Of a DNA stretch of 33,242 nt, positions 1,868 to 3,289 are shown piece after piece. The notes under the pieces were generated by a model. That model was not told where the DNA came from, made no database searches, and saw nothing but the letters and a program-made list of their open reading frames with translations. Made by a program: the position numbers and the translations under genes. This DNA comes from Clostridia bacterium (GTDB taxonomy: Bacteria > Bacillota > Clostridia > Oscillospirales > Acutalibacteraceae): the NCBI GenBank assembly GCA_017550625.1, contig JAFZOL010000046.1, forward strand, positions 1-33,242, read 5' to 3'. Numbering within the stretch: position 1 is the first letter of the stretch; the number at the start of each line of letters is the position of its first letter.

Positions 1868-3289
1868 ATGGGCGGCTTTTTCGGCGCTGCGCTGAAACGC
1901 GACGCGGTCACGGACGTGTTTTTCGGCACGGACTACCATTCGCATCTCGGCACGCGCTGCGGCGGCATGGCCGCGTGGAACCCCGAAAAAGGGCTCCAGC
2001 GCGTGATCCACAATATCGAGAACTCGCCGTTCCGCACGCGCTTTGAATCGATCAGCGCCGAGATGAGCGGTTTCTCCGCCATCGGCGTGATCTCCGATTT
2101 CGATCCGCAGCCGCTGTTGATCCGTTCGCGCCTCGGCGCTTACGCGATCTGCATGATCGGCGTGATCAACAACGCCGACGCACTGATAAACGAGCGCGTC
2201 GCCGCGGGCGGCGATTTCGGCGCCATGACGGGCGGGCGCGTCAACGCCTCGGTGCTGCTCGCGTCCTATATCAATCAGAAAGACAGCTTCGCGGAAGGCA
2301 TCCGCTACGCGCAGAGCCGCGTGGAGGGCACCGCTTCGATTTTGATCCTCAAAGAAGACGGCAGTCTGATCGCCGCGCGCGACCGGCTCGGGCGTCTGCC
2401 CGTGCTCGTCGGCCGGCGTGACGACGGCTACTGCGTCTCGTTTGAGGATTTCGCATATAAAAAGCTCGAATTCGAGACCTGCCGCGAGCTCGGCCCCGGC
2501 GAGATCGTGGAGATCACGAGCGACGGCGTCACGCAGCTTCTGCCTCCGGGCGAAGAGATGCGCATCTGCTCTTTCCTCTGGACCTATTACGGTTACCCGA
2601 CCTCCGCTTACGAGGGCGTGAACGTGGAGATGATGCGCTATATCAACGGCCGCATCATGGCAAAGCGCGACGCCGAGCTCGGCAATAACGAGGGCGTCGA
2701 CTACGTGGGCGGCGTTCCCGATTCCGGCACGCCCCACGCCATCGGCTATTCGAACGAGAGCGGCCTGCCGTTCGCCCGCGCGTTCATCAAATACACGCCC
2801 ACCTGGTCGCGGTCCTTCATGCCCACCGACCAGTCGCAGCGCAACAAAGTCGCGAAGATGAAGCAGATCCCGGTGCACGAGCTGATCCGCGGCAAGAGTC
2901 TGCTGTTCGTGGACGATTCGATCGTGCGCGGCACGCAGCTCCGCGAGACCGTGGAATTTCTGTATGAAAACGGCGCCAAGGCCGTGCATATGCGCTCGGC
3001 CTGCCCGCCGATCATGTACGGCTGTAAATACCTCAATTTCTCGCGCGCCACCTCCGACATGGAGCTGATCGCGCGGCGCAAGATCGTGCAGCTCGAGGGC
3101 GAAGAGGGGCTCGCACATATCGACGAATACGCGAACGGCGACACCGAGCGCGGCAAGAAGCTGAGGCAGGCGATCTGCGAGGAGCTGCACCTCGCTTCTC
3201 TTGAATACCAGACCCTCGACGGGGTGATCCGCGCGATCGGCCTGCCCGCCGAGAAGCTGTGCACCTACTGCTGGAACGGCAGGGAATGA
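1868..3289 (+). CDS. purF: Amidophosphoribosyltransferase PurF, with degenerate glutaminase domain
   Basis: The 473-residue protein has the PurF layout: an N-terminal Ntn-glutaminase fold and a C-terminal phosphoribosyltransferase with the PRPP loop [10 protein letters not shown] (348-357) and [13 protein letters not shown] (283-295). It should make phosphoribosylamine from PRPP. Normal PurF matures to an N-terminal Cys (CGVFG). Here the start reads MGGFFG, so the Cys nucleophile is Gly. The usual HTRYST arginine motif is replaced by VISDFD (74-79) and the HNGNL oxyanion motif by IGVINN (97-102). The start at 1868 is supported by GGGGAGGA 7 bases upstream, so the missing Cys is not a start-choice error. 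A family of such MGGFFG proteins is annotated as PurF in gut bacteria. I infer ammonia dependence or a separate ammonia source. Confidence 0.93.

Follow-up and report, generated by a model that had tools for sequence, protein, structure and literature searches.

The PurF homologue encoded at positions 1868..3289 of the 33,242-nucleotide Clostridia contig analysed here (the window; all features given below lie on its + strand) is probably an ammonia-dependent phosphoribosylamine (PRA) synthase rather than a glutamine PRPP amidotransferase. This glutaminase-less protein of the MGGFFG type, called X below, would catalyse PRPP + NH3 -> PRA + PPi, a first purine step without glutamine, where textbooks teach a glutamine-dependent one. 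Genome comparison shows X to be very likely an enzyme of the pathway, because in 36 of 37 near-complete relatives selected as X-only and rechecked, no other PurF was found. Of the nitrogen sources considered in an earlier note on this DNA, free ammonia is the one that genome and sequence comparison supports best.

X lacks the glutaminase residues of PurF

X is 473 aa long and starts with MGGFFG behind a ribosome-binding site, GGGGAGG (1853..1859), in agreement with the start proposed in the earlier note. Read upstream from the ATG at 1868, the frame passes through CTT, TTG, GAC, GAG, GGG and ACA and ends at a TGA (1847–1849), with no Cys codon in between; as this TGA closes the upstream frame, no alternative start or propeptide is able to supply a Cys to X. 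Against the NCBIfam purF model (TIGR01134, cut-off 350 bits), X scores 171.9 bits, under the cut-off, compared with 482.8 bits for a canonical PurF of the same genome. The nearest solved structures in a sequence search are PurF enzymes (1ao0, E 1.6e-37), and an AlphaFold2 model of X (pLDDT 85.8, pTM 0.84; 36 sequences) has a predicted two-domain PurF fold, whose top matches in the PDB are again PurF enzymes, with both domains covered.

An alignment of 152 distinct X clade sequences (the window's included) with 49 canonical PurF sequences (E. coli K-12 included) was used to follow the glutaminase residues. A Gly codon (1871..1873) occupies the position of the nucleophile Cys1: in a structure alignment, residue 2 of the X model lies opposite residue 1 of chains from 1ao0, 1gph and 1ecb, covering the B. 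subtilis chain and most E. coli chains. MAFFT placed Cys1 opposite this Gly in one run (124 of 124) and opposite a gap in another (152 of 152); the structure alignment favours Gly. Of 172 X open reading frames, duplicates included, 160 have Gly here and 12 have Ser; none has Cys. Loci L168, L174, L182, L184 and L186 are among those bearing Ser.

Further residues of the glutamine site have been replaced or deleted. The stretch from Gly70 to Gln86 of E. coli comprises 9 residues in all 152 X sequences, against 17 in 48 of the 49 canonical ones; in the window, the shortened glutamine loop reads GVISDFDPQ (2084..2110), and both Arg73 and Tyr74 are deleted in 152/152. Asn101 is exchanged for Ile, Val or Thr throughout the clade (152/152), with Ile-Gly replacing Asn101-Gly102 in the window (2156..2161). 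At the position of Asp127, Gly is found in the window (2231..2233) and altogether in 100 of the 152 sequences, Ser in 21 and other residues in the remainder, Asp being outside the five commonest. The alignment at C1, R73, N101, G102 and D127 thus bears out the earlier claims that Cys1 is Gly, which the structure alignment supports, and that the Arg and Asn-Gly motifs are gone. It adds a loss that the earlier note had not listed, Arg26 being Leu in 152/152, window included.

Judged by these residues, the glutaminase half of X is destroyed, and with no Cys1, no glutamine-site residues and a score under the family cut-off, X is by its sequence not a member of the glutamine PRPP amidotransferases. 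Compared with the canonical Fe-S type PurF of B. subtilis (EC 2.4.2.14), it is without Cys1, Arg26, Arg73, Tyr74, Asn101 and Asp127; its glutamine loop is 8 residues shorter than that of canonical PurF, its flexible loop is altered, it has no propeptide, and a long stem sets its clade apart.

The phosphoribosyltransferase half is intact, as the earlier note had stated. The PRPP loop VDDSIVRGT (2909..2935) carries the type I residues D349, D350, S351, R354, G355 and T356, which correspond to E. coli Asp366, Asp367, Ser368, Arg371, Gly372 and Thr373 and are kept in 152/152, as are Tyr258, Lys326 and Lys349 (E. coli numbering); R315 and K332 are likewise present in the window's X. The flexible loop of this half (2789..2818) is altered in the alignment, with Tyr329 changed to Thr or Ser in 152/152 while Lys326 is kept in all and Arg332 in 151; residues 311–330 of the model have a pLDDT under 50. 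The sequence search against solved structures and the alignment locate the cysteines C234 (2567..2569) and C386 (3023..3025), and alignment locates C465 and C468 within CTYC (3260..3271). They match Cys236, 382, 437 and 440 of B. subtilis PurF, its Fe-S ligands, and are kept in 152, 152, 152 and 151 of the 152 sequences, respectively.

Tyr74 and Ile335 are described (PMC7953260) as a wall of the PurF ammonia channel. Tyr74 is deleted from X and the Ile335 position holds Met in 106, Thr in 39, Ile in 5 and Leu in 2 of the 152 sequences, changes that may open the ammonia channel.

X takes the purC–purM slot of the purine operon

The genes of the window run in the order purE-purC-X-purM-FNT-purN-purO-purV-purD-purL-fhs, behind a ZMP/ZTP riboswitch (448..530; Rfam RF01750, 52.9 bits, gathering threshold 39). 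Upstream of X lie purE (590..1087) and purC (1094..1822; TIGR00081, 247 bits), and downstream purM (3313..4356), a gene for a formate/nitrite-type channel (FNT, 4350..5009; TIGR00790, 54.3 bits, under the cut-off of 232.3) and purN (5006..5614). A PurO-like IMP cyclohydrolase (5665..6384; NF003167, 54.9 bits, under the cut-off of 150) and a stand-alone AICAR formyltransferase, purV (6396..7580; NF005492, 679.5 bits), are followed by purD (7617..8894), which served as the query for our PurD search, a long-form purL (8887..12579; TIGR01857, 1792 bits) and fhs, encoding formate-tetrahydrofolate ligase (12605..14278). The names of purE, purM, purN, purD and fhs were given from sequence, the order of the first three being kept in relatives. 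PurL also matches TIGR01737, the glutaminase part, so the purine pathway probably still needs glutamine.

Two side observations concern this operon. The FNT gene lies between purM and purN and could be identified in 16 of the 80 named loci; it perhaps supplies formate for fhs and the formyltransferases. The last purine steps are assigned to the split pair of PurO-like cyclohydrolase and stand-alone formyltransferase (5665–7580) rather than to a bifunctional PurH.

Among the 80 named X loci, the next gene is purM in 66 and canonical purF followed by purM in 4; in 2, X comes after purC at a contig end; one locus is rearranged among purine genes, and the remaining 7 contain none of the pur genes used as reference, 4 of these having fhs. 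Of 20 genomes that do not carry X, 7 have canonical purF between purC and purM, and X fills the equivalent slot in the window and its relatives.

The description of X as the only PurF stands for the operon and fails for the genome. This genome (2.88 Mb, 97.5% complete) encodes a canonical PurF on contig C65, whose sequence MSIHEECGVFG has Cys as its seventh residue; this refutes the notion that the organism has no other PurF, and X as its only PurF was rejected. The C65 cluster (L227, 5312–15123) holds, on one strand, a type III glnA, an AmtB-GlnK fusion, canonical purF, carA and carB; the genes for a split glutamate synthase (GOGAT) are divergent. These neighbour names were given from sequence.

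Neighbourhoods of canonical purF were searched by tblastn with a nitrogen gene set of glnA, amtB-glnK, GOGAT, carA and carB. In the 20 genomes without X, purF has purine genes at a distance of 8 kb or less in 15 and nitrogen genes in 10; nitrogen neighbours are no peculiarity of genomes with X. For genomes with both types, 37 canonical loci (of 58 such genomes) were placed: nitrogen genes lie within 8 kb of 20, purine genes of 11, both of 1 and none of 7. The idea that canonical PurF leaves the purine operon when X is present was dropped, given the 11 loci near purine genes. Eight genomes with both types even carry the two genes in tandem in the purine operon (L229–L236), as purC-X-canonical-purM in seven and purC-canonical-X-purM in G041. 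X takes the purC–purM slot, and canonical PurF is often, not always, elsewhere.

X is the only PurF found in many relatives

A sample of 148 genomes of the order, each at least 95% complete, was classed by bit score (X above 500, canonical below 200), the canonical type being partly deduced from the number of matches; X is present in 84 of them (alone in 32, with a further canonical-type match in 52), canonical PurF alone in 59 and neither in 5. We then rechecked the 32 X-only genomes together with 5 genomes of the window's genus, 37 in total, all of them drafts in about 10 or more contigs. A renewed search for canonical PurF in these X-only genomes (at least 95% complete) found none in 36 of 37, the exception being G021, in which an open frame of 135 codons matches canonical PurF. 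All of the 37 except G043 have PurD, as do 35 of the 36 without canonical PurF. In 25 of 36, PurD shares contig and strand with X and is no more than 8 kb away; five of the other 11 (G043, G052, G072, G078 and G118) have X in different surroundings. The earlier note had held that a second canonical PurF would point to another role for X. Such a PurF is present in this genome, but the relatives in which X is the sole PurF found argue against another role.

Of the 5 near-complete genomes in which neither PurF type was found at E 1e-15, 3 (G044, G069 and G070) also have PurD, perhaps owing to missing contigs or to another PRA route.

The X-only genomes bear on whether X obtains its ammonia from a partner. 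HisF/HisH and PdxS/PdxT are pairs of a synthase and a separate glutaminase, and X could similarly be a synthase subunit, fed by a separate glutaminase that docks on its altered N-terminal domain. That domain is strongly conserved and has new near-invariant residues (listed below), as a docking face would, and canonical PurF lies directly beside X in 12 loci (the 8 tandem genomes and L052, L053, L060 and L096). We consider this arrangement unlikely, however: within the small reference set of genes chosen for the search, no partner glutaminase gene recurs in X operons, in 36 genomes no canonical PurF was found to serve as such a partner, and distant members of the clade occur in scattered places. 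An obligatory complex of X with canonical PurF was rejected as impossible in those 36 genomes.

X is an old clade with a maintained N-terminal domain

The 152 distinct X sequences come from Clostridia and Bacteroidales. In a tree of 123 rows, X forms one side of a branch, with 74 rows and a support of 100, on a stem of 1.81 changes per column, a length obtained by a quick tree method with long branches flagged. Within X, the three Bacteroidales sequences are the first to diverge, and the members from purine operons are nested. The mean entropy of the N-terminal domain is 1.19 in X versus 1.31 in canonical PurF (90 and 38 reduced sequences), and D22, Y23, S25, L27, T29, H48, R56, F59, D77 and N126 are new near-invariant residues of this domain in X. 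Changes common to an old, well-conserved clade reflect neither error nor decay; X is, by these comparisons, an old paralogue whose N-terminal domain has been maintained, and not a decaying gene. A sequencing error or a wrong start was ruled out, the changes being common to 152 distinct sequences and no in-frame Cys lying upstream.

By the same entropy measure, the dead domain of X is conserved as well as a working one, a level of constraint not accounted for by mere loss of function. It might have become a new nitrogen-donor or ligand site, drawing ammonia from some donor that is not glutamine, or sensing nitrogen or purine status. Its constraint equals that of working glutaminases, and several new near-invariant polar residues fall in the stretches of the old motifs (the Arg26 region, the glutamine loop and the Asp127 region). 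The Ser found at the Cys1 position in 12 of 172 frames, as well as pepT beside X and gcvT in Bacteroidales, which hint at ammonia-yielding breakdown of peptides and glycine, would fit such a site. Most X proteins, however, have Gly, which is incapable of acting as a nucleophile, and there is no known ligand, making a new site improbable.

In a sample of the phylum, X was found in 17 of 249 genomes at E 1e-60. All 14 distant X carriers of at least 95% completeness also have canonical PurF, and a recognised purine gene lies directly beside X in 2 of the 14 (G398, G378; X after purC). Distant placements vary, with X after a carB relative, after purC or before pepT. From the canonical PurF in 14/14 and the purine neighbours in only 2/14, the ancestral role of X may have been accessory; our guess is a PRA synthase that used ammonia and was linked to the breakdown of peptides or glycine.

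Two of these neighbourhoods recur. At five loci (L170, L171, L175, L177 and L178), spread over four genomes from a single family of the phylum, X directly follows a carB relative (42% identity to carB of this genome), an adjacency that joins two presumed ammonia-using enzymes. Furthermore, pepT follows X in Peptoclostridium acidaminophilum and three Bacteroidales (L163, L164, L165 and L166), with gcvT also following X in the Bacteroidales; the three Bacteroidales X records are filed as plasmids.

Another alternative is a non-catalytic X. As a regulator or scaffold, X would leave PRA in X-only genomes to another enzyme or to chemical formation from ribose 5-phosphate and ammonia. Canonical PurF in all 14 distant carriers and the three near-complete genomes with PurD and neither PurF type fit this reading, and side routes to PRA do occur in purF mutants. 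To our knowledge, however, such routes usually fall short of purine demand. X moreover keeps its PRPP-binding and catalytic residues in 152/152 and occupies the purC–purM slot, so that a non-catalytic X is very unlikely.

Among X carriers, absence of canonical PurF tracks absence of GOGAT

Using the GOGAT gene of this genome as query, we found a match in 4 of 32 X-only genomes (plus 0 of 4 of the same genus), compared with 47 of 48 genomes with both types (plus 7 of 7 of the same genus). Among X carriers, GOGAT is thus found in 54 of 55 with canonical PurF versus 4 of 36 without (Fisher p 4.9e-19, kinship ignored). The match is present in 45 of 59 canonical-only genomes and in 1 of 5 with neither type. 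AmtB-GlnK behaves similarly, with 35 of 48 genomes with both types versus 2 of 32 X-only genomes. A match to PF00208, the Glu/Leu/Phe/Val dehydrogenase family, was obtained in 68 of 68 genomes, including 36 of 36 X-only ones, and is taken to mean glutamate dehydrogenase.

The tie between GOGAT and canonical PurF also holds within genera. Seven genera contain both classes, and the tie is all-or-none in six of them (g1, g18, g34, g50, g60 and g61) and mixed in g41. In the window's genus, canonical purF lies next to GOGAT, and a single deletion could take out the two together; in g34, g50 and g61, the two lie on separate contigs in at least one genome, and one deletion would not remove both there. 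G039 is the sole exception of the 55, with no GOGAT match and with canonical PurF in the purine operon. Of GOGAT-less genomes with X, 32 of 33 are without canonical PurF, whereas 14 of 18 GOGAT-less genomes without X have it; X therefore behaves as a substitute for canonical PurF. General genome reduction may also have contributed to the losses.

That canonical PurF merely escaped detection in incomplete metagenome assemblies is hardly credible even though all 37 genomes are draft assemblies and G021 shows just a 135-codon frame, because 32 of 84 carriers at least 95% complete are without canonical PurF, against 5 of 148 genomes with neither type, and because its absence tracks that of GOGAT.

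Free ammonia as the probable nitrogen source of X

In the preferred reading of X as an ammonia-dependent PRA synthase, free ammonia would reach the active site through a channel that is without its glutamine-loop wall. The ZTP riboswitch ahead of the operon and the PF00208 protein in every X-only genome also count in favour of this reading. We are less sure of how X and canonical PurF share the work. In this genome, X might serve the purine operon when ammonia is plentiful, the glutamine-dependent PurF of the nitrogen cluster serving at ammonia shortage, and lineages that lose GOGAT might drop the glutamine-dependent PurF. AsnA/AsnB and GDH/GOGAT are pairs of enzymes that make one product from ammonia or glutamine nitrogen, chosen by nitrogen supply, and X with canonical PurF could divide labour as AsnA and AsnB do for asparagine. 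AsnA and AsnB are mutually unrelated, whereas X, the presumed ammonia user, is paralogous to the glutamine user and has kept a dead glutaminase domain. Against a clean division of labour, 20 of 37 canonical loci are near nitrogen genes and 11 are near purine genes.

We tentatively offer a broader history, which we hold to be possible rather than probable, in which a large group of gut Clostridia moved the first purine step from glutamine to ammonia. An old glutaminase-dead paralogue would have been recruited to the purC–purM slot, with the glutamine-dependent PurF kept as a second enzyme (here in the GS/AmtB/GOGAT/CarAB cluster) and repeatedly lost together with GOGAT. The dead domain would have been kept for a new job, for example ligand sensing or feeding in ammonia from peptide or glycine breakdown.

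We found no account of a bacterial Cys-less PurF clade in the open-licence literature; the closest idea concerns archaeal PurF' (PMC3261824). PurF' of Crenarchaeota is described as PurF-like, with no N-terminal Cys and near purine genes (Brown et al. 2011, PMC3261824), and an ammonia-dependent aminotransferase role is proposed for it, without test (PMC3261824). The same text states that every crenarchaeon studied with PurF' also has PurF, and that many PurF' carry Ala or Val (PMC3261824). It also cites E. coli PurF with Cys1 changed, which lost glutamine activity and kept ammonia activity (Mei and Zalkin 1989, cited in PMC3261824). By that description, X is like PurF' in being a PurF homologue without an N-terminal Cys near purine genes, and unlike it in having Gly, rarely Ser, in occurring in Clostridia and Bacteroidales and in often being the sole PurF found.

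If X does use ammonia, purine synthesis begins with free ammonia in many gut bacteria, and the annotation amidophosphoribosyltransferase hides this use. Glutamine analogues directed at PurF would miss these bacteria. The carriers of X, some of which are named cultured species, would allow a direct test of the idea put forward for archaeal PurF' in 2011. The clade would further provide an example of a stepwise switch of nitrogen source, with both enzymes and then one, in several genera.
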